Below the pieces are notes generated by a model. The model made no database searches and was not told where the DNA came from. It saw nothing but the letters and a program-made list of their open reading frames with translations. The position numbers and the translations under genes are program-made. 64,000 nt of DNA. It comes from Prevotella sp. E2-28 (GTDB taxonomy: Bacteria > Bacteroidota > Bacteroidia > Bacteroidales > Bacteroidaceae). Position 1 is the stretch's first letter. Every line of letters begins with the position of its first letter. Where the stretch lies: assembly GCF_022024055.1 (NCBI RefSeq), contig NZ_CP091788.1, positions 2,728,001 through 2,792,000 on the forward strand, given 5' to 3'. This document shows, one piece after another, positions 40,078 to 55,780 of the stretch.

Positions 40078-42294
40078 CTATCTTATGAATAGCAGCTCAC
40101 GGTATTTAGGCAGAGGCCAAAGGGCATCGTCAACGATGAGTTCGAGTTTGTCAATCTGATAGCGAATCTCGTCAAGATAAGGCTCCACCTTGTCATGGTA
40201 GGCAATAGCCTTCTCATGCTCGTCAGCAATCTTATTGGCCTTCTTACGAGCCTCAACCAGTTCCTCAACGCCCTTCTCGATAGCAGAGGTACGCTCAGAA
40301 ATCTCCTGGATAATCTTCTTGTTGCGAGCAGAAAGCTTATCAGCAGTATCGATGGGGAATACTACAGACATGTGGTTCAGGTTGGTGAGCAACTCACTCT
40401 GATAGCGTGTAGCCACAGGAATAATATGGTTCATTGAGAGGTCGCCCAGTACACGAGCCTCAATCTGTATCTTCTTGGTATAAGTCTCCCACTTCACCTC
40501 GTTACGAGCCTCAAGTTCCTTCTTGGTCATCACGCCAAGGCTCTCGAACATATCGATACTCTCCTTGTCAAGGTAGCGTTCAAAAATCTTCGGACAGCTC
40601 TTCTCGACATCCAGACCGCGCTTCTCTGCTTCAGCCACCCATTCATCAGAGTAGCCGTTACCATCAAAGCGGATGGGCTTGCAGGTCTTGATATCCTCGC
40701 GCAATACGTCGATGATTGCGTGGAAAGTAGCGCTGTGACCAGTACCAGCCAACTGCTTCTCGAATTCTGGAATGCGAGCGTCCACACGCTTCTTGAAATT
40801 AACCAGAGCCTCAGCAACGGCACTGTTCAGGGCAATCATTGCGCTAGCGCAGTTAGCCTCTGAACCTACAGCACGGAACTCAAAGCGGTTGCCGGTAAAG
40901 GCGAATGGAGACGTACGGTTACGATCGGTATTATCGATGAGCAATTCAGGAATCTCAGGAATATCCATCTTCATACCCTGCTTGCCAGCCATTGCCAACA
41001 GATCTTCCTTGTCAGCCTTTTCGATGTGGTCAAGCAACTCTGAGAGCTGTTTGCCAAGGAATGAAGAAACGATTGCAGGAGGTGCCTCATTGGCGCCCAG
41101 ACGATGAGCGTTAGTAGCACTCATGATAGAAGCCTTCAACAGGCCATTGTGCTTGTAAACACCCATCAGTGTCTCAACGATGAACGTTGCAAAACGCAGG
41201 TTGGCTTCAGGTGTCTTACCAGGTGCATGCAGCAGCACACCCGTATCGGCACTCAAGCTCCAGTTATTGTGCTTACCGCTACCATTGATTCCAGCGAAAG
41301 GTTTTTCATGCAGCAGTACACGGAAGCCATGCTTGCGAGCCACCTTCTTCATGACTGACATCAGCAACATGTTGTGATCAACAGCCAGATTTGTCTCTTC
41401 GAAGATCGGAGCCAACTCAAACTGGTTGGGAGCTACCTCGTTGTGACGCGTCTTACAAGGAATACCAAGTTCCAGAGCCTCAATCTCCAAATCCTTCATA
41501 AAGGCCTGCACACGCTCGGGGATAGCGCCAAAATAGTGGTCATCCATCTGCTGGTTCTTTGCAGAGTCATGTCCCATCAAGGTACGACCAGTGAGCAGCA
41601 GGTCAGGACGGGCTGCATAGAGCCCCTCATCCACGAGGAAGTACTCCTGCTCCCACCCCAGGTTAGAGGTAACCTTCTTGACAGCGGGATCAAAATAGTG
41701 ACAAACATCTACAGCAGCGACGTTCACTGCATGCAGAGCACGCAGCAGAGGTGCTTTATAGTCGAGGGCCTCACCGCTATAAGAGATAAATACGGTGGGG
41801 ATACACAAGGTATCATCAATGATGAACACAGGCGATGTGGGATCCCATGCAGAGTAACCACGAGCCTCAAAGGTAGAACGGATACCACCAGAGGGGAAAC
41901 TTGAAGCATCAGGCTCTTGCTGTACAAGCAACTTTCCAGAGAATTCCTCAACCATACCGCCCTTACCATCGTGCTCGATAAACGAGTCGTGCTTCTCGGC
42001 AGTACCTTCGGTCAGAGGCTGGAACCAGTGTGTATAGTGAGTGACGCCATTCTCGGTAGCCCACTGCTTCATACCAGCAGCAACAGCATCGGCTACAGCT
42101 CTATCAAGACGAGCGCCATTGTCCATTACGTCAATCATCTTCTCGTACACGTCCTTGGGCAGGTACTTGTACATTTTCTCACGATTGAAGACCTTCTTAC
42201 CAAAATACTCGCTAGGTCTCTCACTTGGTGCTTTTACGTCGAGCGGCTTCTTTTTGAATGCCTCACCGACAACCTGAAATCTTAATGCTTCCAT
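40078..42294 (-). CDS. glnN: Glutamine synthetase type III
   Basis: 738 residues, the size of the GSIII family and unlike the 450 or so of type I. Forms glutamine from glutamate, ammonia and ATP. Recognised segments include LGWEQEYFLVDEGLYAARPDL, CKTRHNEVAPNQFELAPIFE, GSGKHNNWSL, NAHRLGANEAPPAI and NRTSPFAFTGNRFEFRAVGS, the GSIII-specific wording. GSIII is the main ammonia-assimilating synthetase of Bacteroidales. Its promoter has the bipartite element shared with glnK and pyrG, and it is separated from upstream purF by a terminator-like hairpin, so it has its own nitrogen-responsive unit. Confidence 0.96.
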   Translation of the reverse strand: MEALRFQVVGEAFKKKPLDVKAPSERPSEYFGKKVFNREKMYKYLPKDVYEKMIDVMDNGARLDRAVADAVAAGMKQWATENGVTHYTHWFQPLTEGTAEKHDSFIEHDGKGGMVEEFSGKLLVQQEPDASSFPSGGIRSTFEARGYSAWDPTSPVFIIDDTLCIPTVFISYSGEALDYKAPLLRALHAVNVAAVDVCHYFDPAVKKVTSNLGWEQEYFLVDEGLYAARPDLLLTGRTLMGHDSAKNQQMDDHYFGAIPERVQAFMKDLEIEALELGIPCKTRHNEVAPNQFELAPIFEETNLAVDHNMLLMSVMKKVARKHGFRVLLHEKPFAGINGSGKHNNWSLSADTGVLLHAPGKTPEANLRFATFIVETLMGVYKHNGLLKASIMSATNAHRLGANEAPPAIVSSFLGKQLSELLDHIEKADKEDLLAMAGKQGMKMDIPEIPELLIDNTDRNRTSPFAFTGNRFEFRAVGSEANCASAMIALNSAVAEALVNFKKRVDARIPEFEKQLAGTGHSATFHAIIDVLREDIKTCKPIRFDGNGYSDEWVAEAEKRGLDVEKSCPKIFERYLDKESIDMFESLGVMTKKELEARNEVKWETYTKKIQIEARVLGDLSMNHIIPVATRYQSELLTNLNHMSVVFPIDTADKLSARNKKIIQEISERTSAIEKGVEELVEARKKANKIADEHEKAIAYHDKVEPYLDEIRYQIDKLELIVDDALWPLPKYRELLFIR

Positions 42295-42333
42295 CTTTTT
42301 ACTTTTTGGTTACACTTTGTTTGTTTACGGCTG

Positions 42334-42444
42334 CAAAGTTATATCATCTTGTAAGAATATTCTCTTTTTTTGTTACTTCAAAAATCTACAAACTTTATTA
42401 TTCTTACAATTTGAAAGAAAAATGGGTCACAATTCTTGCAAAGT
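42334..42444 (-). promoter_or_regulatory. glnN promoter with shared bipartite element
   Basis: The -7 box TAACTTTG is at 42334-42341. ATCTACA (42384-42390) starts 43 bases beyond its outer end. After exactly 15 bases comes ACAATTTGAAAG (42406-42417). A degenerate mirror copy (AATTCTTGCAAAGT) is at 42431-42444. TTGTAAGAATA (42349-42359) and TATTCTTACAA (42399-42409) also form a perfect inverted repeat. Compare 45880-45989 and 55189-55301. Confidence 0.8.
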
Positions 42445-42461
42445 GTAAGACTGCAACCCAT
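42422..42461 (-). terminator. Branched hairpin after purF
   Basis: ATGGGT and ACCCAT pair across 42422-42461, with an inner stem CTTGCA/TGTAAG, then a short T run on the minus strand. It lies 9 bases after the purF stop and overlaps the outer part of the glnN control region, so it could serve both roles. Confidence 0.55.
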
Positions 42462-42469
42462 CACACCTT

Positions 42470-44215
42470 TCAGTTTTTATTTCGATGATTATATATTTTC
42501 TCTACATAATTCACGAAAGCCTGATTTACAAGACGCGTACCACCTGGCGTTGGATAACGACCTGTGAAGTACCAGTCACCTGGATGGTTAGGACAGGCCT
42601 CGTGCAATCCTTCGATGCTTTGGAACACCAGTTCGATAGGTGCCTTCATATCGGCAGGACGGAGCATCTCTACTATTTTATGATTGATTTCCTCTACAGT
42701 AAAGGGTTCATAGAGTGCTCGAACGTGATTCTCGCTATTGGGATCTCGCTTGCAAGCCAGATAGACATCATTTACCAATTGCCACAGGCCGCGCTCCTCA
42801 ATCAAAGCCATCGTAGCACGGAAGGCACAGAACTCCTCCAAACGTGCCATATCGATACCATAGTAATCTGGATAACGAATCTGTGGCGATGAGCTCACCA
42901 TCACAATCTTCTTTGGATGCAAGCGATCCAGAATCTTGAAGATACTCTCACGAAGCGTTGTGCCACGAACGATAGAGTCATCTATTATCACGAGATTATC
43001 CACGTTTGGACGCAGCGAGCCATAACTGATATCATAAACGTGAGCAGCAAGGTCATTACGCTCACTATTATCGGCAATAAAAGTGCGCATCTTGATATCC
43101 TTCCACACCACTTTCTCTGTACGCACGTTATAGCCCTGCTGGCGGAAGCCATCAGTCATACCATAATAAGCCACTTCAGCCGTATTAGGGATATACGAGA
43201 AAACCGTATTTTCCACATCGCCATCAATAGCTTTCAGAATGGCTGGCGTAAGTTGCACGCCCAAGCGCTTACGCTCCTGATAGATATCACAGTCTGAGCC
43301 ACGACTGAAATAGATACGTTCAAATGAGCAGGCGCTGAGTTTCTGAGCAGGCATAATCTGCTCCAAGCGACTCTCACCATTCTTACGAACGATAAGTGCC
43401 TCACCTGGTTTCAGTTCGCAAATATCCTCCGCATTCAAGTCAAAGGTTGTCTGAAGCACTGGACGTTCACTGGCCAAAGCCACAATCTCTTCATCACGAT
43501 AATAGAACGCAGGACGGATACCCCAGGGATCACGAACAGAGAACATCTCGCCACTTCCTGTCAATCCACACATCACGTAACCACCATCATAGTGTTCCAT
43601 CGTGGTACGTAACACATTGGCCATCTCCACATGCTCATCAATATAACGGGTAATATCTATTCCCTCCAATCCTTTCTGCTTAGCCTCATCATAGAGACGC
43701 TCCACTTCGCGGTCTAAGCGATGGCCCATCAGTTCCAGCGTGATATAAGAATCGCCATAAATACGGGGCGACTGTCCCTGAGCTGTAAGAAACTGGAAGA
43801 CCTCATCAATATTAGTCATGTTGAAGTTGCCACACAGACAGAGGTTCTTTGCTCGCCAGTTATTACGGCGCAGAAAAGGATGAACGAAGGTTAGACCACT
43901 TTTGCCTGTTGTAGAGTAGCGCAGATGCCCCATCAGCAACTCGCCCTTCATCTCCTCCGTGACGCGAGAAAAAATCTCCGTGATAGCAGTCTTACCCTCA
44001 GCCTTCTCACGGAACATATATTCGCGCCCAGGTTCCGTATTCAGGCTTACCGATGCGATACCTGCACCTTCCTGTCCACGGTTGTGCTGCTTCTCCATCA
44101 TCAGGTAGAGCTTATTGAAACCATAAGCCCACGTACCATATTTCTTCTCGTAATAATCCAGCGGTTTTAGTAAGCGAATCATCGCCACACCGCATTCATG
44201 CTTTAATTGCTCCAT
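42470..44215 (-). CDS. purF: Amidophosphoribosyltransferase, long Bacteroidales form
   Basis: 581 residues, about 100 longer than typical PurF. First step of purine synthesis: PRPP plus glutamine gives phosphoribosylamine. The glutaminase cysteine is Cys8 in KHECGVAMIRLL, so a short propeptide must be removed to expose it. The N-terminal nucleophile domain continues with MEKQHNRGQEGAGIAS, and the phosphoribosyltransferase domain has the PRPP loop VIIDDSIVRGTTLRES. It follows pyrG by 38 bases and shares its promoter, so two glutamine-consuming enzymes are made together. It could be a paralogue of another PurF elsewhere in the genome. Confidence 0.82.
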   Translation of the reverse strand: MEQLKHECGVAMIRLLKPLDYYEKKYGTWAYGFNKLYLMMEKQHNRGQEGAGIASVSLNTEPGREYMFREKAEGKTAITEIFSRVTEEMKGELLMGHLRYSTTGKSGLTFVHPFLRRNNWRAKNLCLCGNFNMTNIDEVFQFLTAQGQSPRIYGDSYITLELMGHRLDREVERLYDEAKQKGLEGIDITRYIDEHVEMANVLRTTMEHYDGGYVMCGLTGSGEMFSVRDPWGIRPAFYYRDEEIVALASERPVLQTTFDLNAEDICELKPGEALIVRKNGESRLEQIMPAQKLSACSFERIYFSRGSDCDIYQERKRLGVQLTPAILKAIDGDVENTVFSYIPNTAEVAYYGMTDGFRQQGYNVRTEKVVWKDIKMRTFIADNSERNDLAAHVYDISYGSLRPNVDNLVIIDDSIVRGTTLRESIFKILDRLHPKKIVMVSSSPQIRYPDYYGIDMARLEEFCAFRATMALIEERGLWQLVNDVYLACKRDPNSENHVRALYEPFTVEEINHKIVEMLRPADMKAPIELVFQSIEGLHEACPNHPGDWYFTGRYPTPGGTRLVNQAFVNYVEKIYNHRNKN

Positions 44216-44262
44216 TGCAAATTCTTTTTTTTCGTTATTTCGTTATAACGTTATTACGATAT
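44216..44262 (-). repeat. CGTTATAACG word tract from the pyrG stop to purF
   Basis: The last pyrG codons GTG ATA TCG TAA run straight into taacgttataacgaaataacg. The words taacg and gatatcg are those of the tract at 38852-38927, 5.3 kb away. Confidence 0.7.
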
Positions 44263-45855
44263 CACGCAGGCTTTAATAAAACTCATAAATAATGGATGCG
44301 GATGCAGCACCGTAGAAGAATATTCCGGATGGAACTGTGTACCAATGTACCAACGGTTTTCTGAGATTTCTACAATCTCCACGAGGTCAGCATCCGGGTT
44401 GATACCCACGCACTTCATGCCCTTTGTTTCGTACTCGTTCTTATAGGCATTATTAAATTCATAACGATGACGATGACGTTCCTTAATAAGTGTCTCTTCG
44501 CCATAGGCCTCATAAGTCTTACTTCCTTTTATAAGTTCACACTCATAAGCGCCCAGTCGCATGGTGCCACCCATCTGCGTGATATTTTTCTGTTCCTCCA
44601 TAATATCTATCACGTTATGAGGAGTCTTTTCGTCCATCTCACGACTATTGGCATCCTTATATCCCAACACGTTGCGTGCAAACTCGATAACCATCATCTG
44701 CATACCCAAACAGATACCAAAGGTTGGGATATCATGAGTGCGGGTATATTCGGCTGCAATAATCTTACCTTCTATACCACGATTACCAAAGCCTGGGCAA
44801 ACCACGATGCCTGCCACACCAGCGAGCTTTTCAGCCACGTTCTCTTCAGTAATTTCCTCGCTATTGATAAAATGAAGTTTTGCTTTTACATTATTATATA
44901 TACCGGCCAGGTTCAGACTCTCACGGATACTCTTATAAGCATCCTGCAAGTCATACTTACCTACGAGTCCGATATGCACTTCGCGTGTAGCATGACGTTG
45001 TTTCTTCAGGAACTCATGCCAAGGTTTCATGGCTGGTGTCTCTCCCACGGGGATACCAATCTTACGCAAAATAGCTGCATCAAGTCCTTGCTTCTGCATA
45101 CTTACAGGCACTTCATAGATGGAAGGCATATCCTCGCTCTGTACCACGCACTCCAAGTCGACGTTACAGAATGATGCCACCTTCATTCTCATGCCATCAT
45201 CCAAATGGCGCTCCGTACGCAGCACCAATATATCAGGCTGGATACCCATACCCTGCAACTCCTTGACAGAGTGCTGTGTGGGTTTCGTCTTCAACTCATC
45301 AGCAGCCTTCAGATAGGGCACGTAGGTCAGATGCACACACACGGCATTTCTACCCAACTGCCAGCGCAACTGTCGAATGGCCTCCATAAAAGGTGCGCTC
45401 TCAATATCGCCAATGGTACCGCCCACCTCGGTTATCACAAAGTCCAGTTGCTCATCTTTTTCGTCCTCGCGCAGCATTCTGCGCTTAATCTCATCCGTGA
45501 TATGAGGCACCACCTGAATGGTCTTGCCCAGATAATCGCCACGACGCTCACGATCTATCACCGTCTTGTAGATACGTCCAGTGGTAATTGAATTATGACG
45601 TGTGGTATGAATACCCGTAAAGCGCTCGTAGTGGCCCAGATCCAGGTCGGTCTCCATTCCATCAGCCGTTACATAGCATTCGCCATGCTCATAAGGGTTC
45701 AGCGTACCTGGGTCAATGTTAATGTAGGGGTCAAACTTCTGGATGGTTACTTTATAGCCGCGTGCTTGCAGCAATTTTCCTATTGAGGCGGAAATAATGC
45801 CTTTTCCCAACGAGGAAACAACACCGCCTGTAACAAAGATATATTTTGTGTCCAT
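44254..45855 (-). CDS. pyrG: CTP synthase
   Basis: 533 residues. Converts UTP to CTP using ATP and glutamine. The N-terminal synthase domain starts KYIFVTGGVVSSLGKG and contains KFDPYINIDPGTLNPYEHGE. The C-terminal glutaminase has the cysteine in FGICLGMQ and the His-Glu pair in QFHPEYSS. The start at 45855 is used because the longer frame (45882) begins inside the -7 box. It heads an operon with purF, under a promoter with the bipartite element also found at glnN and glnK. Confidence 0.97.
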   Translation of the reverse strand: MDTKYIFVTGGVVSSLGKGIISASIGKLLQARGYKVTIQKFDPYINIDPGTLNPYEHGECYVTADGMETDLDLGHYERFTGIHTTRHNSITTGRIYKTVIDRERRGDYLGKTIQVVPHITDEIKRRMLREDEKDEQLDFVITEVGGTIGDIESAPFMEAIRQLRWQLGRNAVCVHLTYVPYLKAADELKTKPTQHSVKELQGMGIQPDILVLRTERHLDDGMRMKVASFCNVDLECVVQSEDMPSIYEVPVSMQKQGLDAAILRKIGIPVGETPAMKPWHEFLKKQRHATREVHIGLVGKYDLQDAYKSIRESLNLAGIYNNVKAKLHFINSEEITEENVAEKLAGVAGIVVCPGFGNRGIEGKIIAAEYTRTHDIPTFGICLGMQMMVIEFARNVLGYKDANSREMDEKTPHNVIDIMEEQKNITQMGGTMRLGAYECELIKGSKTYEAYGEETLIKERHRHRYEFNNAYKNEYETKGMKCVGINPDADLVEIVEISENRWYIGTQFHPEYSSTVLHPHPLFMSFIKACVIS

Positions 45856-45879
45856 AAAACGAATGTATTTTATGGACTG

Positions 45880-45989
45880 CAAAGTTACGCATTATTCTGC
45901 TATCCAGCCAAAAACCGCCTCATATTTCAATCTACATTTTCGTCCGAAATAACAATCTGCAAGAAAAGGAATGCATTTTCTTGCAGATT
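45880..45989 (-). promoter_or_regulatory. pyrG-purF promoter with shared bipartite element and palindrome
   Basis: The -7 box TAACTTTG is at 45880-45887. ATCTACA (45930-45936) starts 43 bases beyond it, then 15 bases, then ACAATCTGCAAG (45952-45963). The second half is the left arm of a perfect 14-base inverted repeat, AATCTGCAAGAAAA (45954-45967) with TTTTCTTGCAGATT (45976-45989). The rest of the gap to the sigma factor promoter holds no gene. Confidence 0.82.
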
Positions 45990-46074
45990 ACTATCGGTTT
46001 ATCAAAAATACGCACTCATTTATCACAAACTATCAAAGATAAGCAAAACCATTGGGAAATACAAAGAATCTTTG

Positions 46075-46082
46075 TACCTTTG
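46075..46082 (+). promoter_or_regulatory. -7 box TACCTTTG of the sigma factor operon
   Basis: A perfect TAnnTTTG match 129 bases before the sigma factor start, leaving an untranslated leader of about 125 bases. Confidence 0.72.
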
Positions 46083-46101
46083 CAAGCGAAACCAAGCAGA
46101 C

Positions 46102-46140
46102 ATGAACAAAATCAAGCACTTATCCGTTAAAGAACCTTAA
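46102..46140 (+). CDS. Possible 12-residue leader peptide
   Basis: ATG to TAA codes for MNKIKHLSVKEP within the leader of the sigma factor message, about 15 bases after the expected transcription start. It may be an upstream regulatory reading frame or chance. No ribosome-binding signal can be judged in this phylum. Confidence 0.25.
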   Translation: MNKIKHLSVKEP

Positions 46141-46211
46141 ACCTCAATCATGATGCGTTATATTTTGCGGCGTTGATTGTTATATAGGCAAAAAACATAT
46201 GTAAAACGTTT

Positions 46212-46736
46212 ATGCAAGAAGAACTGTTTACAGATATAGTTATCCGCCTGCGCCCACGACTCATGAGCCTTGCACGCGGCATCCTCCACAATGACGAGGA
46301 GGCAGCAGATGCCGTACAGGATGCACTCGTTTCACTATGGCGCATGGGTGACAGGGTACAGCAGCCCACGGAGGCCGAACGACTGGCGATGCGCATTACT
46401 CGTAACGTCAGCCTGAACAAACTGAAACGCCGGTCTTTTGTCATTGCTGCCCTAGACAATATGCCCAGCGACACGATTCATCCGCTGACCGCCCGACAGG
46501 ACAATCCACACGAAAGCATGGAGCGACAAGAAACAGAACGCCAGGTCAACGATGCCATTGCTGCCTTACCTAAGAATCAGCAGGCAGTCATACTTCTGCA
46601 TCACATGGACGGCCTCTCCTATCAGCAGATTGCGGCTATACAGGGAAGCACAGAGAATGCTGTCCGCATGACTGCCAGTCGCGCCAAAGCGAATCTTATG
46701 AATAGTTTAAAACAACCAAAACAAGAAGCATCATGA
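46212..46736 (+). CDS. ECF-type RNA polymerase sigma factor
   Basis: 174 residues. Region 2 (about 15-80, RLRPRLMSLARGILHNDEEAADAVQDALVSLW) and region 4 (about 110-165, LPKNQQAVILLHHMDGLSYQQIAAIQGSTENAVRMTASRAKANL) are typical of ECF factors. It directs polymerase to a small regulon, usually including its own operon. The stop overlaps the anti-sigma start by 4 bases (ATGA), so the products are coupled. The target promoter is not evident. Confidence 0.92.
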   Translation: MQEELFTDIVIRLRPRLMSLARGILHNDEEAADAVQDALVSLWRMGDRVQQPTEAERLAMRITRNVSLNKLKRRSFVIAALDNMPSDTIHPLTARQDNPHESMERQETERQVNDAIAALPKNQQAVILLHHMDGLSYQQIAAIQGSTENAVRMTASRAKANLMNSLKQPKQEAS

Positions 46737-47260
46737 AAACGAATCATAACATACCAACCGACGAACAGCTATGGAACGAGGTTCTGGACGTTCTACATGA
46801 TAATCGTCGTGAACTGACTGACGAGGAAATCGAAAAGCTCACGAGCGAACCCAAGCCATCACGCCGTTGGATGCGTATTGCGGCTACATTTTTTGCCGTC
46901 GCCCTGCTCAGCGGACTGGCCTATGCTGCCTATCATTTCCTTTCTCCACAGTCAACAGAACCGTCAACGGAAACAACAATAGCCGAGTCTAAGACAGATG
47001 ATGCCAGTTCCACCGATGATGCGCTAATGCGTTTTGCGGATGTCCGCTTGGACAGCATTCTCTCTGTAGTGGGCAGCCATTATAGCCATCAGGTTTGTTT
47101 CCGTGAAGAGACACTACGTAATCTCCGTTTCACCATCGCCTGGGATAGCGTTCAGCCACTAAGCACCTTCCTCAATAACGTAAATGAGTTTGAGGGACTA
47201 CACCTTTCTGACGAGCGCGATACCATCTTTGTTCATGCAGAGAAGGAGGTTAAACCATGA
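46733..47260 (+). CDS. Short anti-sigma factor with DUF4974/STN-like C-terminus
   Basis: 175 residues. The cytoplasmic N-terminus (about 1-45) should hold the sigma factor. One membrane helix follows (about 50-68, IAATFFAVALLSGLAYAAYHF). The periplasmic end (about 100-170) has the VRLDSILSVVGSHYSHQVCF...STFLNNVNEFEGLHLSDERDTIFV pattern of DUF4974, which folds like the STN domain. The FecR domain that normally lies between helix and DUF4974 is missing, making the protein about half the usual length. It overlaps both neighbours by 4 bases. Confidence 0.75.
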   Translation: MKTNHNIPTDEQLWNEVLDVLHDNRRELTDEEIEKLTSEPKPSRRWMRIAATFFAVALLSGLAYAAYHFLSPQSTEPSTETTIAESKTDDASSTDDALMRFADVRLDSILSVVGSHYSHQVCFREETLRNLRFTIAWDSVQPLSTFLNNVNEFEGLHLSDERDTIFVHAEKEVKP

Positions 47261-50200
47261 AGCGCATCACCTTATTATTAATAATGGTGGGCATCGTGAT
47301 ATGCGTTTCAGCACAAACACTTTCTTTGGCTGACGCATTGGCCCGATTGAACCAACAGCAGGATGACTACGAGATTTCCTTTATCCATAACGACTTGGAG
47401 CACCTGCAGGTGGTAGCCGACGCACGGGGACTGAGTGTGCCTAAGGCCGTCAAGCAAATGACGAAAGACCAACCCGTGCGTGTCGTCACCAAAGGAAAGC
47501 AGATATATGTGCAATACAAGCCGAAGTCCGACAAACGCTATATGGTACTTGAAGGCAAGGTGAAGGACTACGTGACACACCTTGACCTGCCCCATGCTGC
47601 CGTTCGCCTGCTAAATGCCGATGGTGTCTGCATTGATTCCTGCGAGGCCATCTCTTATTTGCAGTATGGCAACAATACGCCCATAGAACTGGCAAACTTT
47701 GCTTTCAGAGTACCTGCACGCCCTACGAAATATACGATTCAGGCCAGCTATGTGGGCTTTAAGCCTACCGAAATGCCCTATGAACTGAGCAATATCTACC
47801 GTCGTGAACAACGTCGCAATCTGCCTCCCGTCTATATGAAGCGCGAATCAAAGATGCTGAAGGAGGTGGTTGTTACCTCGACTAAGGTACAGTTCTACTA
47901 CAAAGGCGATACGCTGGTGTTCAATGCCGATGCCTTTGAACTAGCCGAGGGCTCTATGCTCGATGCACTGGTGAAGCAGTTGCCTGGCATCGAACTGAAA
48001 GAGGGTGGACGTATCTATCACAACGGTAAGTATGTGGATGCGCTGCTCCTCAATGGCAAAGACTTTTTCCGTGGCGACCACACCATTATGCTCGACAATC
48101 TGCCTGCCTATACGGTAAAGAACATACAGATTTATGATAAGTGGGGCGACAAGAGCGAGTTTCTTGGGCAGCATGTGGCTGGCGACAACCGCTATGTGAT
48201 GGATGTAAAACTCAAGAAGGAGTACAGCATCGGCACACTTGCAAATGCTGAGGCTGGTGGTGGAACGCCGGATCGTTGGCTTGCCCGACTCTTTGCCCTC
48301 CGTTTCTCTGACCACTCCCGCATCGCAGCCTATGCCACCGCCAACAACCTGAATGGAGACACCAAACCTGGCGAGACGGGCAGCTGGAACCCTCAGCGCA
48401 TACAGGACGGCGGACAACTCAAACAGCAGCAGGCTGGTATCGACTATAACGTAGAGGACCGCAACAGCAAGTGGAAAGCCGATGGCAACCTGCAGGTGAC
48501 TCATACCGACCTGAATCGCGAGGCCAACACCAATCGCCAGAACTACCTGGCTACGGGCGATACTTACGAACGCATGACTAATGTCAACAGGAACAAGAAC
48601 CTGAGGTTGAATACCAGTCACCATTATTATCGGGATTTCAAGATGTGGAACCTCGATATTCGTCCATCACTCAACTATCAGAAGTTCGACAATACTGACC
48701 GTAGTATCGCCTCGGCCTTCTATCAGAACGACAGTCTCATCCACCGCAATCTGCAACGAGGCATTACCAAGGGACACACTCTCGATGGAGAACTACGTCT
48801 CAGCAGTACGTTGAAGTTTCACCACAGTCCCGACTGGGCTTCACTTGACGCCGAGGCCAGTTTCAGCGACCAGCAGGAGGACCGCTATCATCGGCAGTCT
48901 GTTGAGTATGCTGCAACATCGTCGCAGCCCTCAAAAAGCCTCAACCGCTACTACCGCAACCATCCTAACCGCTCATGGCATGCGATGGGTGGCGGCACCT
49001 ATCAGATCAACTTCACCCCTCAAATCCGACTGCAATTGAATGCGGACTATACGCATAACGACCGCCAACGAGAGTCGTCGCTCTTCGACATCGACACCAC
49101 CTACGCCCTTGGTCAGTTGCCGTCCGCTCACGAATATGAGCAGTACATTAATCGTCGTAACAGTTATACGAGCCACTTCACAGAAGACATCTACGACTTC
49201 AATCCGCGCTTCTTCTACAACTGGAACAAAGGAAAGGAGAAGAAAGTATGGGCGCAACTCGGATTCCCTGTCACACTCGTTCGTCAACAGCTAAGCTACC
49301 AGCGCGGCAGCATTGACACCCTCGTGACGCGCAACACTATGCCCATCAACATCTGGGACTGCTTTATCCAGTACACAACCATCAATGCAGAGACGGGAAA
49401 TGCCCAGAAGCTGCACCTACAGTATATGGCCCAGACCTCAACACCTGATTTGCTGAACCTCGTCGATATGCACGATGATACTGACCCACTGAACATCCGT
49501 CTGGGTAATAACAGCCTGCGCAATGCCGTTAACCACGAGTTCTCGTTCAGTCACCAATGGGGAAACGCTAACCGTAAAGAGGCAAGCCATCGGTACTATC
49601 TCAGTTACACGATCATCCAAAATGCCCTTGCCATGGGTTATCGTTACGATCGTGCCACAGGCGTCCGCACCTGGCAGGCCGACAACGTGAACGGAAACTG
49701 GAACGCCAGCGCGGACTACCGTTTCAACACAGTCATTGGCAAGAAGCACCCTCTCCGCCTCAATGTCAGTCCGAGTGTCAGTTACCAGCATAGCGTGGAC
49801 CTGGTGGACCAAGCGCGTAGCACCGTCAACACGCTTTCTTTCAACAACACGCTGAATCTCTCCTATAAGATTGGACAGCACGCACTCACCTTCAAGAGTA
49901 CCACGCTTTGGCAGCGTTTCAGCAGTCAGCGCACGGACTTTGAGACGCAGCAGCCCTTGACGCTTACCAATGGGATGACAGCCATCGTCAAACTGCCTTG
50001 GAACTTGGAACTGAGTAGTGACATGACGCTCTACAGTCGCACGGGCTATACCGACTCACAACTCAACACCAACGACCTGGTATGGAATGCCCGCCTCGCA
50101 CGTCCGTTCCTTAAAGGAAAGCTGGTAGTGATGCTCGACGGCTTCGACATCCTTGGTCAACTTGACAACGTTACCCGTAGCGTCAATGCGCAAGGTCGCA

Positions 50201-50283
50201 CAGAAACCTATACCAATGTCATGCCCCGCTACGCCTTACTGCACGTAGCATACAGATTCAACAAGATGCCGAGAAAGAAATAA
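47257..50283 (+). CDS. Outer-membrane receptor with STN-like N-terminus, partner of the sigma/anti-sigma pair
   Basis: 1008 residues. A signal peptide (IMVGIVICVSAQ) is followed by an STN-like signalling domain (about 25-85, LADALARLNQQQDDYEISFI), a CarboxypepD-like domain (about 95-180), the hinge LKEVVVTSTKVQFYYKGDT, a plug-like region (LDALVKQLPGIELKEGG, LLLNGKDFFRGD) and a long barrel ending in AYRFNKMPRKK. Unlike SusC it lacks the SusC plug signatures and has no SusD partner. It probably binds a ligand outside and signals through the STN domain to the anti-sigma factor. Its last 48 bases overlap convergent pdxT. Confidence 0.82.
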   Translation: MKRITLLLIMVGIVICVSAQTLSLADALARLNQQQDDYEISFIHNDLEHLQVVADARGLSVPKAVKQMTKDQPVRVVTKGKQIYVQYKPKSDKRYMVLEGKVKDYVTHLDLPHAAVRLLNADGVCIDSCEAISYLQYGNNTPIELANFAFRVPARPTKYTIQASYVGFKPTEMPYELSNIYRREQRRNLPPVYMKRESKMLKEVVVTSTKVQFYYKGDTLVFNADAFELAEGSMLDALVKQLPGIELKEGGRIYHNGKYVDALLLNGKDFFRGDHTIMLDNLPAYTVKNIQIYDKWGDKSEFLGQHVAGDNRYVMDVKLKKEYSIGTLANAEAGGGTPDRWLARLFALRFSDHSRIAAYATANNLNGDTKPGETGSWNPQRIQDGGQLKQQQAGIDYNVEDRNSKWKADGNLQVTHTDLNREANTNRQNYLATGDTYERMTNVNRNKNLRLNTSHHYYRDFKMWNLDIRPSLNYQKFDNTDRSIASAFYQNDSLIHRNLQRGITKGHTLDGELRLSSTLKFHHSPDWASLDAEASFSDQQEDRYHRQSVEYAATSSQPSKSLNRYYRNHPNRSWHAMGGGTYQINFTPQIRLQLNADYTHNDRQRESSLFDIDTTYALGQLPSAHEYEQYINRRNSYTSHFTEDIYDFNPRFFYNWNKGKEKKVWAQLGFPVTLVRQQLSYQRGSIDTLVTRNTMPINIWDCFIQYTTINAETGNAQKLHLQYMAQTSTPDLLNLVDMHDDTDPLNIRLGNNSLRNAVNHEFSFSHQWGNANRKEASHRYYLSYTIIQNALAMGYRYDRATGVRTWQADNVNGNWNASADYRFNTVIGKKHPLRLNVSPSVSYQHSVDLVDQARSTVNTLSFNNTLNLSYKIGQHALTFKSTTLWQRFSSQRTDFETQQPLTLTNGMTAIVKLPWNLELSSDMTLYSRTGYTDSQLNTNDLVWNARLARPFLKGKLVVMLDGFDILGQLDNVTRSVNAQGRTETYTNVMPRYALLHVAYRFNKMPRKK

Positions 50284-50808
50284 CTCGTGTAGGCGAGTGT
50301 CGTTATCTAGCTCCGGATGGAAGGCTGTAGCTATCTGATTGCCCTGACGGGCAGCCACGATATGACCATCGACGGTGGATAGGACCTCAACTTTATCGCT
50401 CAGCACGCGCTCGATATAGGGGGCGCGGATAAAGGTCATGGGAACATCGGTGCCAATACCTTTGACGGCGTCAACGGTATGAAAACTGCCCAACTGCCGA
50501 CCATAGGCGTTGCGACGCACCTCGATGTCCATCGTACCCAAGCGTCCCTCTGACAGGAGTATCATGCCAGCACAAGTACCCAAAACGGGCAGGCCGTCAA
50601 GAATGGCTTGGCGGATGGGGTCATAGAGGCCAAGTTCCTTCAGCAGGCGCATCTGCACGGTGCTCTCGCCGCCAGGCAAGACCAGTCCGTCCTTAGGTTG
50701 CTGCCAGTCACTGAGCTGACGCACCTCGAAAGTCTCTACGCCTAAACGATGAAGCATCTGTTCGTGTTCAATAAATGCTCCCTGTAATGCTAAAACGGCT
50801 ATTCTCAC
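50236..50808 (-). CDS. pdxT: Pyridoxal 5'-phosphate synthase glutaminase subunit
   Basis: 190 residues starting at GTG. Releases ammonia from glutamine and passes it to PdxS. The triad is visible: the cysteine in VLGTCAGMILL, and His-Glu in AFHPELD. LVLPGGEST is also present. The family normally ends near the HELFL segment. Here about 13 further residues (SRHLVESVCYVQ) are read from the antisense of the receptor gene end. It lies 44 bases after pdxS, and the gap is an AAAGAGTG word tract. Confidence 0.94.
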   Translation of the reverse strand: MRIAVLALQGAFIEHEQMLHRLGVETFEVRQLSDWQQPKDGLVLPGGESTVQMRLLKELGLYDPIRQAILDGLPVLGTCAGMILLSEGRLGTMDIEVRRNAYGRQLGSFHTVDAVKGIGTDVPMTFIRAPYIERVLSDKVEVLSTVDGHIVAARQGNQIATAFHPELDNDTRLHELFLSRHLVESVCYVQ

Positions 50809-50852
50809 TTTTTTTACTCTTTTACTTTTTCACCCTTTCACTCTTTCACTCT
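50809..50852 (-). repeat. AAAGAGTG word tract between pdxS and pdxT
   Basis: From the pdxS stop the minus strand reads as variants of aaagagtg and aaagagta every 9 to 10 bases, ending in the GTG start of pdxT. Confidence 0.75.
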
Positions 50853-51728
50853 TTACTTCCCTCTCTCGGCCATGAGGAGTTCAATCTCGTGCTCGTTGAT
50901 ACCTACCATTGCCTCACCCAGATCTTCTGACAGCTCAGCCAGCAGTTTGGCATCCTTGTAGTTAGTCACAGCCTGTACGATGGCGGCGGCACGTTTTGCA
51001 GGGTTGCCACTCTTAAAGATACCACTACCCACAAACACGCCCTCGGCACCAAGTTGCATCATCAGCGCAGCATCGGCAGGCGTAGCCACACCACCAGCAG
51101 CAAAGTTGACCACGGGCAGTTTGCCTTCCTCATGCACAAACTTCACCAGTTCATAGGGTGCCTGCAGTTGTTTGGCAGCCTCGAAGAGCTCATCCTCACT
51201 CATGCTGACCAGTTGGCGAATCTCGCTCTGCATCAACCGCATGTGACTCACAGCCTGAACCACATCGCCCGTGCCTGGCTCACCCTTGGTACGAATCATC
51301 GTGGCTCCCTCGGCAATACGACGCAGGGCCTCACCCAGGTTCTTCGCACCGCACACAAAGGGCACGTCAAACTTCGTCTTGTCAATATGATAGATGTTAT
51401 CAGCAGGACTAAGCACCTCGCTCTCGTCGATATAATCTATCTCAATAGCCTGCAGAATCTGAGCCTCAGCAATATGGCCGATGCGGCATTTCGCCATCAC
51501 AGGAATGCTCACAGCCTCCTGAATACCACGTATCATCTTGGGGTCGCTCATACGACTCACGCCACCCGCAGCACGAATGTCGGCAGGGATACGTTCAAGG
51601 GCCATTACAGCACAGGCACCTGCTGCTTCAGCAATCTTTGCCTGTTCGGGAGTAGTCACGTCCATGATAACACCACCCTTCAGCATCTGAGCCAACTGGC
51701 GGTTGAGCATTGTTCTTTCGTTTGTCAT
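50853..51728 (-). CDS. pdxS: Pyridoxal 5'-phosphate synthase lyase subunit
   Basis: 291 residues, the standard length. With PdxT it makes pyridoxal phosphate from ribose 5-phosphate, glyceraldehyde 3-phosphate and ammonia. Family signatures are [35 protein letters not shown] wording near the start, the PLP/ribose lysine in VMAKCRIGH, and [21 protein letters not shown]. It begins 5 bases after the ThiD/AraC fusion gene and is followed by pdxT, so the three are one operon. Confidence 0.97.
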
Positions 51729-51733
51729 TCTAT

Positions 51734-52630
51734 TTATTTGTTTTTGTGTTGAAATTCCGTTGGGGAAAGTCCCTTGTGCTTCTTGAAGAAGCGCGAGAGG
51801 TGAGCCTGCGACGAGAAGCCGAGGCGCTGAGCGATGTCCTTCAGGGGACGGTTAGTTGAAGAAAGCAATATCGTTATCTCGTTGATGATGCGCTCATCTA
51901 TAATCGCTTTCGGAGAACGATTAACAGTTTTACGGGTTACCTGTCCCAGATAGCGGGCACTAACGTTAAGCTGTTCTGCATAAAACGCCACGTCAGCATA
52001 GCGGTTGTAGTAACGCTCAACAGCACCCAGGAACTGGTTATAGAGTTCCTCACTACGACTGTTACCATCAGCATAATCAGCTGGCAACGCCTTCAAATAA
52101 GTCTGTGCATGCAGCATGGCATCATCCACATTCTCACCTAGGCTTAAATAATAAGCCAAAGCCGAGGCCAACTGGTTTGCACCACCGTGATGACGCGGTC
52201 CTACGGGCAGGTCCGAAGGTGTCAAAACTACCGTACATAATGGCAGCAAGCACTTCTCTATAGTCTTATAGACACTGGCCGATACCAGTTGCTCGCCCTT
52301 CGCTGATGTCAGCACAGGCGCATAGATAATGTGCTGTGGCTGGTATTTGCGCAGAACCTCTGCTAACATCTCCACCACATCCGTGCGACGCAACAGTCCT
52401 ATTTTTATGATTTGAGGTTGCAGGTCATTGATAATTGCCTCCACCTGTTGGCGCACCACCGTAGCAGGCAGGTCGTGAAACTCCTGAATACCCAGCGTGT
52501 TTTGTACGGTTATCGAGGTAATGGCTGAAGCCGCCTTTCCGCCCAACTCACTAATGAGCCGGATGTCAGCCTGCACGCCTGAACCGCCTGTCCCGTCGCT
52601 GCCTGTAATTGTCAGAATGGTTGCGCTCAT
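51734..52630 (-). CDS. Candidate regulator: inactive ThiD/PdxK-like domain fused to AraC DNA-binding domain
   Basis: 298 residues. Residues 1-185 align with ThiD ([39 protein letters not shown]). The segment after LTPSD (140) jumps to [19 protein letters not shown], so about 65 residues with the KGG motif are missing and the catalytic HGTGC reads HGGAN. D-x-V-M before the phosphate loop also reads APVL. Residues 205-298 are an AraC-type double HTH ([40 protein letters not shown]). It is the first gene of the pdxST operon, which fits a B6 or pyrimidine sensor. The frame extends to a TTG at 52660, but that lies in the promoter. Automatic annotation may call it a kinase. Confidence 0.85.
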
Positions 52631-52657
52631 ATTTTTGTTATCGCTAAAATACGGGTG

Positions 52658-52665
52658 CAAAGGAA
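52658..52665 (-). promoter_or_regulatory. Probable -7 box TTCCTTTG of the pdxST operon
   Basis: It matches TAnnTTTG at all but one fixed position and lies 27 bases before the ATG at 52630. It overlaps the T run of the porin operon terminator. Confidence 0.55.
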
Positions 52666-52701
52666 CGAAAAAAAGCGGAAATCGCCAAACGATGTTCCGC
52701 T
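52663..52701 (-). terminator. Terminator of the glnK-amtB-porin operon
   Basis: AGCGGAA (52674-52680) and TTCCGCT (52695-52701) pair, and the minus strand continues with a T run. It lies 50 bases after the porin stop. Confidence 0.85.
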
Positions 52702-52735
52702 TCTGGTAAAAGAAAATGCAGTTTTTGAAAACAAA

Positions 52736-52765
52736 TTATGGTATCAATGTTTATGGTATCAATGT
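52736..52765 (-). repeat. Exact tandem duplication of the last 15 bases of the porin gene
   Basis: On the minus strand ACATTGATACCATAA occurs twice in a row: 52765-52751 contains the last four codons and the stop, and 52750-52736 is an identical copy after the stop. Confidence 0.92.
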
Positions 52766-53461
52766 GAATCCAAGTACCAAATAGGCTTTCTGCGTACAGG
52801 GGTTAGCTGCAACCTGCGCAAAAACAGGAACTGAGAACGATTCTGTTACCTTGACATCCTTTGTTGCCTTCAGCGACAGGTTGGTCACAGCGAAGCCACT
52901 CGTCCATCCATTATAGAAATCGGTAGCGAAGGGGACGGCACCGGCCGTAGCAGTCCAGTCTACAGAAGCAAACTTAAATGGGACAATGGCCTCGACATAG
53001 CTGCTGTAGGCACGTTTGCCGTCCTTGTTTGCGCCATCATTACCTGAGAAATTGGTGAACCACTGCAGAGAGGCTACACCGAAATCATAACCTACATTGG
53101 CCTCGAACACATGGTTGGTTCCGTGAGCATCATACTTGAAGTATCTGCCAGCAGGATCCAGACCAGCATTGAACCAGTAGTCGGTCACACCAATATTAAA
53201 TCCACCTACAGTATAGGCTGCAGTCAGGTCAAACTCCTTTGTATCTGTAGGATCTGTCAGTCCTACACTACCCCATCCTGTGAGGCTGAATCCTTTATAG
53301 GCAATACCAAGTGTGGGCTGCAACGAAACACCACCCAGGTCCTGGCCACGCCAGATATAGTTACTTACTACGTCAGCACTAATGGTTGTCTCTACTTCAT
53401 CCTGTGCAAAGGTGGTCATACTCATGGCCATACCCAATGCGAATAAAACAATCTTCTTCAT
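52751..53461 (-). CDS. Small outer-membrane porin-like protein of the ammonium operon (TorF-like)
   Basis: 236 residues. A signal peptide (KKIVLFALGMAMSMTTFAQ) is followed by ISADVVSNYIWRGQDLGGVSLQPTLGIAYKGF. The YIWRG opening is typical of TorF-type (Gcw_chp) putative porins. The rest is beta-strand-like. It follows amtB by 36 bases of word tract in the glnK-amtB operon, which suggests an outer-membrane route for ammonium or small nitrogen compounds. Family assignment is moderate and function is inferred from neighbours. Confidence 0.72.
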   Translation of the reverse strand: MKKIVLFALGMAMSMTTFAQDEVETTISADVVSNYIWRGQDLGGVSLQPTLGIAYKGFSLTGWGSVGLTDPTDTKEFDLTAAYTVGGFNIGVTDYWFNAGLDPAGRYFKYDAHGTNHVFEANVGYDFGVASLQWFTNFSGNDGANKDGKRAYSSYVEAIVPFKFASVDWTATAGAVPFATDFYNGWTSGFAVTNLSLKATKDVKVTESFSVPVFAQVAANPCTQKAYLVLGFTLIP

Positions 53462-53497
53462 ACGCTTTACTTTTTTTACCTTTTTACTTTTTTACCT
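53462..53497 (-). repeat. GTAAAAAAG word tract between amtB and the porin gene
   Basis: Directly after the amtB stop the minus strand reads aggtaaaaaagtaaaaagg and further variants up to the next start codon, with TAA in several frames. Confidence 0.75.
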
Positions 53498-54754
53498 TTA
53501 GTTATAACAAGCCTCTCCGTGTTCGTAGATATCGAGTCCTTCCTCCTCAATACGTTTGTTGACGCGCAGACCGTGGATATACTTGATGCCATAGAACAGG
53601 ATGAATCCGCAAGCAGCAGCCCAGAGGTCGATTACGAGTACACCGAAGCACTCAGCACCGAAGAATCCCCAACCGCCACCGTAGAAGGCACCTGTCTCAG
53701 TAGCCAGCAGACCAGTCATGATAGTACCAAGGATACCGCAGACACCGTGTACAGAGCTTGCACCTACAGGGTCGTCAATGTGTAGCTTGTGATCAATAAA
53801 CTCAATGGCGTAAACCAGTACGATACCGCAAACCAAACCGATGATGACAGCGCCGAAGGGTGATACGAGGTCACAACCAGCGGTGATACCTACGAGACCA
53901 GCCAGCACACCGTTAAGAGTCAGAGAGAGTGAGGGCTTGCCATACTTGATATAGGTAAGGAACATGGTAGCAACACCACCTGCAGCTGCAGCGAGGTTAG
54001 TTGTCAGGAACACGTGAGAGATAGCCACGCGGTTTACCTCACCACTTGCAGCCAACTGAGAACCGGGGTTGAATCCGAACCATCCCAACCAGAGGATGAA
54101 TACACCCAGAGCAGCCATAGCCAAGTTGTGACCAGGAATAGCGCGGCTTTTACCGTCCTTAGCATACTTACCAACACGGGGACCCAGTGCCAGAGCACCA
54201 ATCAGAGCCAATACACCACCTACAGAGTGAACGATGGCAGAACCAGCAAAATCATGGAACACATCACCGAAGGTGGTCATCATGAAGCTATCAACAGCAT
54301 CATTGCACAACCAGCCACCACCCCAGGTCCAGTGACCCTCAACAGGATAGATGATCAGCGAGATAACGGCACTATAAATAAGGTACATAGAGAACTTGGT
54401 GCGCTCAGCCATAGCACCGCTGACGATGGTAGCAGAGGTTGCACAGAAAACGGTCTCGAAAATCAAGAATCCCTCTACAGGCAGTTCGCTCTCGTAGAAA
54501 CTCAGGTCACCCCAATTGGGCAGACCAATAAAACCACCCAGGGTATCGGCACCAAACATAAAGCCGAAGCCGAGGAAGAAGAACAGCAATGAGCCGAACA
54601 TGAAATCGACAAAGTTCTTCATCAGGATGTTTGCCGTGTTCTTACTACGTGTAAAACCAGCCTCACACAGCGCAAAACCGGGCTGCATCCAGAAAACCAA
54701 CATGGCTGCCAATAGCATCCATACGGTATCGAGTGAAATTCCTATTTCGTTCAT
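53498..54754 (-). CDS. amtB: Ammonium transporter
   Basis: 418 residues with eleven membrane helices. Conducts ammonium or ammonia across the inner membrane. The pore twin histidines are in FAGSAIVHSVGGVLAL and GASSVHGVCGILGT, and the signature DFAGSAIVH is intact. The N-terminus (LDTVWMLLAAMLVFWMQPGFALCEAG) lacks a cleaved signal peptide. It lies between glnK and a porin gene in one operon, so uptake is coupled to PII control of the channel. Confidence 0.97.
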   Translation of the reverse strand: MNEIGISLDTVWMLLAAMLVFWMQPGFALCEAGFTRSKNTANILMKNFVDFMFGSLLFFFLGFGFMFGADTLGGFIGLPNWGDLSFYESELPVEGFLIFETVFCATSATIVSGAMAERTKFSMYLIYSAVISLIIYPVEGHWTWGGGWLCNDAVDSFMMTTFGDVFHDFAGSAIVHSVGGVLALIGALALGPRVGKYAKDGKSRAIPGHNLAMAALGVFILWLGWFGFNPGSQLAASGEVNRVAISHVFLTTNLAAAAGGVATMFLTYIKYGKPSLSLTLNGVLAGLVGITAGCDLVSPFGAVIIGLVCGIVLVYAIEFIDHKLHIDDPVGASSVHGVCGILGTIMTGLLATETGAFYGGGWGFFGAECFGVLVIDLWAAACGFILFYGIKYIHGLRVNKRIEEEGLDIYEHGEACYN

Positions 54755-54784
54755 AACTTTTTACCTTTTAATCTTTTTACCTTT
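54755..54784 (-). repeat. AAAAAGGT word tract between glnK and amtB
   Basis: The last glnK codons GAT AAA AAG TAA continue as aaaggtaaaaagattaaaag and a further copy up to the amtB ATG, so the repeated word contains the end of the coding sequence. Confidence 0.78.
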
Positions 54785-55132
54785 TTACTTTTTATCACGT
54801 AGTACGGTGTCACCCTTCTCGCCTGTGCGAATAGAATAGGTCTCCAGTACATCGCTCACGAAGATACGTCCATCACCGACCTCACCTGTATGAGCCACCT
54901 CAAGCAGCACTTTGATGGTGGGGTCCAAAAATTGGTCACGACAAACAATAGTGATCGCTACACGCTCAATGACATCCGTTGAATACATCACACCACGGTA
55001 GATACGTTCCTGACGGCTCTGTCCGATGCCATGCACGTCGTGATACTCAAACCAGTTGATGTCCGACGTAAGCAGGGCTTCCTTGACCTCTTCAAACTTG
55101 GTCTTACGGATAATTGCTTCAATCTTTTTCAT
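54785..55132 (-). CDS. glnK: Nitrogen regulatory PII protein
   Basis: 115 residues. PII trimers sense 2-oxoglutarate and ATP/ADP and plug AmtB when nitrogen is plentiful. It begins MKKIEAIIRKTKFEEVKEAL. The T-loop (about 37-55, GIGQSRQERIYRGVMYSTD) keeps tyrosines at positions matching E. coli Tyr46 and Tyr51, the latter being the uridylylation site, but the surrounding loop differs. The C-terminal GEVGDGRIFVSDVLETYSIRTGEKG is typical. Linkage to amtB favours glnK over glnB. The promoter carries the bipartite element shared with glnN and pyrG. Confidence 0.93.
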   Translation of the reverse strand: MKKIEAIIRKTKFEEVKEALLTSDINWFEYHDVHGIGQSRQERIYRGVMYSTDVIERVAITIVCRDQFLDPTIKVLLEVAHTGEVGDGRIFVSDVLETYSIRTGEKGDTVLRDKK

Positions 55133-55188
55133 ACCTTAATACCTTTAATTAATACTACTTGTCACTGTGACTCTTCTGAATTCGGTGG

Positions 55189-55301
55189 CAAAATTACAAC
55201 CATTTCCTGACATAGCAATTATCCCTTTCTTCCTTTCATTCTACAAAATTTCGCAAAATGACAATCTGTAAGGCAAAACACTGATTTTGCTTACAGATTG
55301 T
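55189..55301 (-). promoter_or_regulatory. glnK-amtB promoter with shared bipartite element and palindrome
   Basis: The -7 box TAATTTTG is at 55189-55196. TTCTACA (55239-55245) starts 43 bases beyond it, then 15 bases, then ACAATCTGTAAG (55261-55272). That half is the left arm of an inverted repeat: 55261-55278 with TTTTGCTTACAGATTGT at 55285-55301, one bulged base. TTTCA precedes the first half here and at pyrG. Confidence 0.82.
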
Positions 55302-55422
55302 AAATTTCACTCAAAATGTAGATTTTCTTTTGCCCGTAATCTTGCACAATATTATTACACTAGTATCTTTTACCATGATTCTAATATTGGTCATTTTACC
55401 GCACACATCTACAGAAACATTC

Positions 55423-55480: not shown

Positions 55481-55780
55481 ATGGGAAAGAATACTTTCGG
55501 AAAGACGATGCCAAGGGCTTTGACCCAGCAGTTGCAGCTCATGGGCGAACAGATTATGCTGGCACGTAAGCGCAGGCATCTTTCAATGCAGGACATAGCA
55601 GACAGGGCAACGGTGACACGTCTGACAGTCTCTAAGGTGGAACATGGCGACCCTACAGTTTCTATGGGTATCTATGCACGAGTACTCTTTGCACTTAACC
55701 TAGAAAAGGATATCTCATTGCTCGCTGCCGATGACGCTCTCGGCCGTCAGCTTCAGGATGCAGAATTGCTGAAAAAATGA
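55481..55780 (+). CDS. hipB: HipB-like antitoxin, XRE-family DNA-binding protein
   Basis: 99 residues. An XRE helix-turn-helix occupies about 22-80 (LMGEQIMLARKRRHLSMQDIADRATVTRLTVSKVEHGDPTVSMGIYARVLFAL), and the ending EKDISLLAADDALGRQLQDAELLKK is typical of HipB relatives. It should bind and silence the HipA kinase and repress its own promoter. The inverted repeat in front of the -7 box is the likely operator. Its stop overlaps the hipA start by 4 bases. Confidence 0.88.
   Translation: MGKNTFGKTMPRALTQQLQLMGEQIMLARKRRHLSMQDIADRATVTRLTVSKVEHGDPTVSMGIYARVLFALNLEKDISLLAADDALGRQLQDAELLKK

Follow-up and report, generated by a model that had tools for sequence, protein, structure and literature searches.

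The window analyzed here is a 64,000-nucleotide stretch of Prevotella sp. E2-28 (NZ_CP091788.1, positions 2,728,001 to 2,792,000), in which the minus-strand promoters of glnN, glnK-amtB and pyrG carry rows of short palindromes in a fixed register. Six promoters of this genome share the array, and we have very little doubt that the array and the regulon it marks are real. Computation from the genome sequences showed the row with its regular spacing, its clustering at nitrogen genes, and the same palindrome in the lrp2 promoters of relatives. The array has the appearance of a nitrogen control switch for this bacterial group, and the best candidate for the switch itself is its putative binder, an AsnC/Lrp-type protein. 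We consider it probable that the array controls a nitrogen-assimilation regulon and consists of a phased palindrome row that is bound and wrapped by an Lrp/AsnC-family protein, most likely the one called Lrp2 below.

Structure of the array

The first-pass annotation of this DNA described the same bipartite element, at identical spacing, before glnN, glnK-amtB and pyrG. All three copies match and their coordinates were confirmed: CARATTGT-N15-TGTAGANT lies on the minus strand at 42383-42413 (glnN), 45929-45959 (pyrG) and 55238-55268 (glnK), 15 bases separate the halves in every copy, and the first base of the element is exactly 43 bases from the -7 box, which starts at 42341 (TAACTTTG), 45887 (TAACTTTG) and 55196 (TAATTTTG), respectively. 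Over the whole 3.76-Mb genome the exact pattern is found four times, always in this cluster; the fourth copy, missed previously, mirrors the glnK copy on the plus strand (Table 1). Another 22 matches with one or two mismatches all fall outside the window, and among the 19 of 26 matches whose surroundings were inspected, no array was seen by eye around the 16 that lie outside it. A chance test confined to the window was uninformative (six matches with up to three mismatches vs. 4.46 expected). Because the pattern was derived from the sites themselves, independent support comes from untrained gene families with equal spacing and from the six-promoter genome scan, both described below.

The element is a fragment of a longer series, in which palindromes of ~17 bp (ACTTACAAATTGTAAGT, the symmetrised B site) recur with a period of 31-32 bp from about -132 to +56. 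Relative to the -7 box, the row centers lie near -132, -101, -69, -38, -7, +25 and +56; the -69 site is the anchor of the row, and the others vary by promoter. Across 89 non-redundant promoters (spacing 64), C...G pairs are conserved at -72/-66, -41/-35, -10/-4 and +22/+28, and more weakly at -104/-98. When only the -69 site is used to make a matrix, further peaks appear at -133/-132, -101/-100, -38, -7, +25 and +56, with an extra pair of peaks one turn out of line at -143/-142 and -112/-111. Peaks other than -69 occur in 13-61% of the 89 promoters and in 1-5% of 171 control promoters, while the -69 site is present in 97%, although it helped to select those promoters. The row members at glnN are -101, -69, -7 and +25, those at glnK are -101 and -69, and pyrG has -69 and, weakly, -100; none of the three window promoters has a site scoring above 3 at -38.

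The inverted partners of the element, ~32 bp upstream, had been overlooked in the first-pass annotation. A separate element, AGA at -46 to -44, was found in 29 of the 89 regulon promoters and 0 of the 171 controls; the TGTAGA half of the window copies starts at -49, beside the -38 palindrome position, and belongs to it. The reported bipartite site is thus palindrome B plus the AGA element. The two halves had been taken for direct repeats 25 bases apart, which is not the best reading of the element: the upstream half is a palindrome of the phased row and the TGTAGA half is a distinct element.

Two features expected of an Lrp/AsnC-type operator are present. The symmetrised B site falls within the size of the family's pseudo-palindromic dimer sites, which we take to be ~13-17 bp. 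The 31-32-bp period agrees with the two- or three-turn spacing on one DNA face that, like wrapping, is characteristic of the Lrp family (PMC2995911).

Regulon content and conservation

A matrix was trained on 23 promoters (11 glnN, eight glnK and four pyrG, including the three in the window) from 80 named glnN loci and the cluster regions of relatives, with a spacing of 64 assumed, and was run at spacings of 63-65 over the window and loci L027-L106 and L159-L188. This gave 130 matches above 14. All 120 matches of at least 20 with a downstream open reading frame (ORF) belong to six families (glnK 37, gltB 29, dapF 20, glnN 16, pyrG 11 and amt2 7), in loci that are mostly glnN neighborhoods, a bias toward nitrogen genes, but that hold other genes too. 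Two further matches of at least 20 had no such ORF. The gltB, dapF and amt2 families were absent from training; a matrix scan for other nitrogen genes had been proposed earlier, and it recovered gltBD, the asnB-containing operon and the second amt at the same distance to the -7 box.

Distances from the -7 box are not random. With the spacing left free (20-124), 63 of 91 promoters from the untrained families scored above 6; of these, 51 lay at 63-65 and another nine at 94-96, a shift of one 31-bp repeat. With five column-permuted matrices there were 0-6 matches, with 0-2 at 63-65, and 25 of the 171 control promoters scored, three at 63-65. This test dropped 44 gene starts without a TAnnTTTG box (seven gltB, 32 dapF and five amt2).

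Eight promoters of the low-scoring tail were set aside, and the other 81 of the 89 non-redundant promoters gave R1, a sequence model of 96 columns; the anatomy above used all 89. In this genome R1 found six promoters at 35.6-51.3 bits, and the next match scored 26.8. The six serve glnN, glnK-amtB, pyrG with the purF-like gene, gltBD, dapF-dapL-asnB and amt2; outside the window, the gltB-gltD promoter is at 2809134 (-), that of dapF-dapL-asnB at 2809275 (+), divergent from gltB, and that of amt2 at 1188350 (-). Most of the matches from 26.8 bits down are confined to the stretch around the -7 box. Behind the mirror-image copy at glnK, where only model positions 3-43 match, R1 did not find the -7 part.

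In four named relatives, all 13 matches of at least 33 bits lie at regulon genes: four in X. ruminicola D31d (glnN, gltB, pyrG and dapL), four in X. brevis (glnN, gltB, glnK and amt2), three in P. aff. ruminicola Tc2-24 (dapL, dapF and pyrG) and two in AGR2160 (glnK and dapF). X. rarus, P. pectinovora and Marseilla have no R1 match above 31.4. Among 40 genomes, matches of at least 34.8 bits occur in this one and in nine of the 23 other members of the genus; none was found in 16 genomes of other families. The gltB gene is present in all ten array-bearing genomes, and four other genomes of the genus have gltB of 77-84% identity with no match of at least 34.8 bits. The register itself can differ: one of these four (G015) has gltB palindromes at +15, -16, -68 and -99, another (G002) has the usual register at glnK without -69 (+57, +25, -6 and -38), and a third (G011) has gltB sites at +15, -69 and -142. 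In a wider set, 108 of 200 genus genomes have matches at E 1e-8 or better. Of 66 matches annotated (26 at new loci and 40 picked from the lower end of the match list, some of the genomes overlapping the training set, with at least one contig, of 84,611 bases, equal in length to that of L027), 64 precede regulon genes, one precedes carA and one is unassigned.

The carA case is an array in one relative (L459, G305:C4:69889-69983, +) before the gene for the small subunit of carbamoyl-phosphate synthase, a glutamine-using enzyme, and the regulon may therefore extend further. In Prevotella sp. E2-28, a weak full-length R1 match of 25.9 bits (L276, G000:C1:2951101-2951193, -) lies before a phosphofructokinase gene (PF00365); this could be a marginal regulon member or chance.

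The regulon agrees broadly with published ammonium-shift expression in a different strain, P. ruminicola 23, whose ammonium responders include most of the regulon genes. These are amtB (69-fold), PRU_1977 (58), glnK (46), asnB (38), glnN-2 (35) and two glutamate synthase (GOGAT) subunits (33 and 27), together with dapF and pyrG (PMC5552732). That paper contradicts itself on direction, with limiting ammonium in one sentence of the Results and excess in Figure 4, Table 2 and the Discussion (PMC5552732). Neither "promoter" nor "Lrp" is used in the main text of that paper.

Candidate regulator

Among the gene clusters that recur in at least five of 107 loci, none that was matched resembles a regulator (two are unnamed, of 823 and 721 aa), so a locally encoded regulator was rejected and the binder is identifiable only indirectly. 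A CRP-type site was also rejected, because the half-sites have the wrong orientation for one. We judge it quite likely that the binder is an Lrp/AsnC-type protein. This genome encodes three proteins with a PF01037 domain, Lrp1, Lrp2 and Lrp3. Lrp2 is a member of the Lrp/AsnC family (helix-turn-helix and RAM domains) with near-full-length alignment to AsnC, FL11 and LrpA; its closest solved relative is Escherichia coli AsnC (2cg4, E 3e-29), and it does not reach the AsnC equivalog cut-off (139.4 vs. 227 bits). The gene is directly followed by a class I amidotransferase-like gene in this genome. Lrp2 is present in 10 of 10 array-bearing genomes and Lrp3 in four; Lrp1 is found at 80% identity or more in seven, with 57% and 49% relatives in two more.

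The nitrogen palindrome itself also occurs before lrp2 in relatives. A matrix made without any lrp promoter scored at least 15 within 200 bp upstream of lrp2 in seven of 26 genomes, of lrp3 in 0 of 15 and of lrp1 in 0 of 11, while 3% of 1098 upstream regions in general reach 15, a figure inflated by the regulon genes. A score of 11 was reached upstream of 11 of 26 lrp2 genes, one of 15 lrp3 genes (11.4) and none of 11 lrp1 genes (best 10.6). Measured from the gene's own -7 box, a palindrome at +14 to +16 scores at least 3 in 18 of 47 lrp2 promoters, compared with seven of 171 controls (Mann-Whitney p 2e-7; seven of 54 lrp2 loci without a -7 box were left out), and 13 of 21 lrp2 promoters within the genus have it (p 1e-7). 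The location of this site just behind the -7 box suggests that Lrp2 may repress its own gene.

Several points weigh against Lrp2 as the regulator or against the extent of the regulon. Lrp2 is also present in 13 array-negative genomes of the genus; several genomes are incomplete, and the array-bearing ones may form one clade, so that the co-occurrence may reflect shared descent. The link between lrp2 and the operator is weak outside the genus, where only five of 26 lrp2 promoters from other genera or families have the +14 to +16 site (p 0.005); across the order, none of 29 lrp2 upstream regions reaches 13 and four reach 11. The site is weak (6.9) in this genome's own lrp2 promoter. As for the array, its -69, -38 and -7 peaks fall inside the matrix that selected the promoters, and the other peaks outside; in the R1 genome scan, 150 of the 2903 first-look candidates received a score. 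Finally, gdhA, glnA, cysK, purN and purT are further ammonium responders of strain 23 (PMC5552732), and the genome scan, in which these five genes were not located individually, shows no array beyond the six promoters.

The row could also be a genuine nitrogen operator that is bound by another Lrp paralogue or by an unrelated regulator encoded elsewhere, an explanation we think rather unlikely. The lack of a recurring local regulator is compatible with it, and Lrp1 is the paralogue most like E. coli Lrp, but lrp1 adjoins an O-acetylhomoserine sulfhydrylase gene, the palindrome scores favor lrp2 over both of its paralogues, and Lrp3 was not found in six of the ten array-bearing genomes. Lrp1 is disfavored as the regulator since no strong palindrome precedes its gene and visual inspection shows a CAGAAAATTT-like sequence, similar to the E. 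coli Lrp consensus, in several of the upstream regions. This sequence recurs near the lrp1 promoter (loci L191, L194 and L195), and in this genome lrp1 is divergent from the sulfhydrylase gene, so Lrp1 possibly has a separate sulfur or methionine circuit.

An activator that contacts polymerase at a set position was proposed in the first-pass annotation; a single dedicated activator of this kind on the bipartite site, with the other palindromes incidental, appears improbable to us. The near-constant -69 site, beside the more variable others, and the specificity of the TGTAGA/AGA element agree with it, but sites at -100, -133, -143, +25 and +56, none of which the selecting matrix covers, occur ~4 to 18 times as often as in controls, and most of them are in 31-bp phase. 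The nitrogen or glutamine regulon and the fixed geometry of that proposal are strongly supported, now at six promoters. Contact between an activator and polymerase is possible, but a wrapping Lrp-type complex accounts better for the phased row as a whole. A general promoter feature, terminator or repeat of this group that involves no regulator is very improbable: long inverted repeats that look terminator-like by eye and many weaker R1 matches (9.7-26.8 bits) are in its favor, but the repeats sit upstream of the -7 box, the shared sequence is rare in the 171 control promoters from the same loci, and all 120 matches with an ORF lie before nitrogen genes.

For control by Lrp2, we infer its binding, its ligand, wrapping of the DNA, and activation or repression. 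An Lrp/AsnC protein, most likely Lrp2, would bind the palindromes, which pass through the promoter about three helical turns apart, as linked dimers on one DNA face, and would bend or wrap the promoter DNA. Glutamine synthetase, GOGAT, PII-AmtB, the second Amt, pyrG with the PurF-like protein, and dapF-dapL-asnB would then be switched together by nitrogen state, with glutamine or asparagine as the likely signal.

Features and gene neighborhood

Table 1. Positions of the genes and control elements of the nitrogen cluster in the window, and of lrp2 in the genome. Site centers are given from the first T of the -7 box.
Feature	Position	Strand	Remarks
glnN, type III glutamine synthetase	40078..42294	-	PF12437 + PF18318
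glnN leader site E	42308..42324	-	center +25; score 9.8
glnN -7 box TAACTTTG	42334..42341	-	
glnN site D	42340..42356	-	center -7; overlaps -7 box; score 7.4
glnN TGTAGATT element	42383..42390	-	starts at -49
glnN palindrome B, TCTTTCAAATTGTAAGA	42402..42418	-	center -69; score 15.9 (maximum 19.0)
glnN palindrome A	42434..42450	-	center -101; score 12.8
PurF-like class II amidotransferase paralogue	42470..44215	-	downstream of pyrG
pyrG, CTP synthase (glutamine-hydrolysing)	44254..45882	-	
pyrG -7 box TAACTTTG	45880..45887	-	
pyrG TGTAGATT element	45929..45936	-	
pyrG palindrome B	45948..45964	-	center -69; score 12.1
pyrG palindrome A (weak)	45979..45995	-	center -100; inverted partner of B; score 4.4
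orf236, conserved	52751..53461	-	follows amtB in relatives; matches neither NCBIfam nor Pfam
amtB, ammonium transporter	53498..54754	-	TIGR00836
glnK, PII signalling protein	54785..55132	-	PF00543
glnK -7 box TAATTTTG	55189..55196	-	
glnK TGTAGAAT element	55238..55245	-	
glnK palindrome B	55257..55273	-	center -69; score 14.5
glnK palindrome A	55289..55305	-	center -101; score 15.0
Mirror-image copy CAGATTGT-N15-TGTAGATT	55294..55324	+	makes glnK control region symmetrical
Lrp2, AsnC-like	3314506-3314976 (genome)		PF01037 over cut-off

The listed TTG start of pyrG overlaps the -7 box, and a later ATG is therefore likely the true start. The purF label given earlier to the gene downstream is right only in that the product is PurF-like; this 581-aa protein is a paralogue that scores 155 bits against a curated PurF cut-off of 350. 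Divergent from pyrG, at 46212-50283 (+), are genes for an ECF sigma factor, a FecR_C-domain protein and a 1008-aa protein without an NCBIfam match.

From its gene order, orf236 is likely the counterpart of PRU_1977. Downstream of glnK-amtB-orf236 on the same strand (50236-52660, -) are a ThiD-like kinase fused to an AraC-type helix-turn-helix domain, pdxS and pdxT. The ammonium responders of P. ruminicola 23 include PRU_2766/2767, annotated as phosphomethylpyrimidine kinase and pyridoxine biosynthesis genes (PMC5552732). Genes of the same type follow orf236 here, and they may form one long operon with glnK-amtB-orf236. A HipB/HipA-type pair (55481-57027, +) is divergent from glnK and adjoins the mirror-image site; it was rejected, since among the annotated relatives no such pair was found close to glnK.

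Significance and comparison with known systems

Prevotella is reported to be the most abundant rumen genus (PMC5552732). It can grow on ammonium, yet our literature search found no transcriptional nitrogen regulator described for the Bacteroidota. The present analysis provides an operator that can be tested, the six promoters of its regulon in this genome and a single named candidate for the protein. The array is also a natural system of unusual regularity in which promoter wrapping by an Lrp-type protein could be tested. We tentatively propose that in Prevotella-type Bacteroidota one AsnC-family master regulator may have replaced control of the NtrC, GlnR or NtcA type, a regulator that reads glutamine or asparagine and wraps entire promoters on as many as seven dimers, set three helical turns apart in a nucleosome-like row.

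NtrC, GlnR/TnrA and NtcA do the same physiological job as that proposed for the array. They use different binding sequences and promoter types, whereas the arrays here are on TAnnTTTG promoters. E. coli AsnC, the closest solved relative of Lrp2 although Lrp2 scores below the equivalog cut-off, has an asparagine-linked role and is not known to govern a glutamine synthetase-GOGAT regulon. Sa-Lrp of Sulfolobus acidocaldarius is glutamine-responsive, binds the control regions of gltB, gdhA and glnA, and bends and wraps DNA (PMC3584215). It differs in being archaeal, in its bipartite AT-rich sites, and in that its deletion left gltB expression unchanged in three conditions; the sections of that paper cited here describe no conserved promoter-locked array (PMC3584215). 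E. coli Lrp at gltBDF is likewise an Lrp-family protein controlling glutamate synthase, with sites centered at -152, -215 and -246, i.e., 63 and 31 bp apart (PMC1784095), similar to the spacing here. There, control involves three distant sites together with IHF (PMC1784095), whereas the Prevotella array has as many as seven phased sites spread over the promoter, is common to a regulon of six promoters and uses another palindrome.

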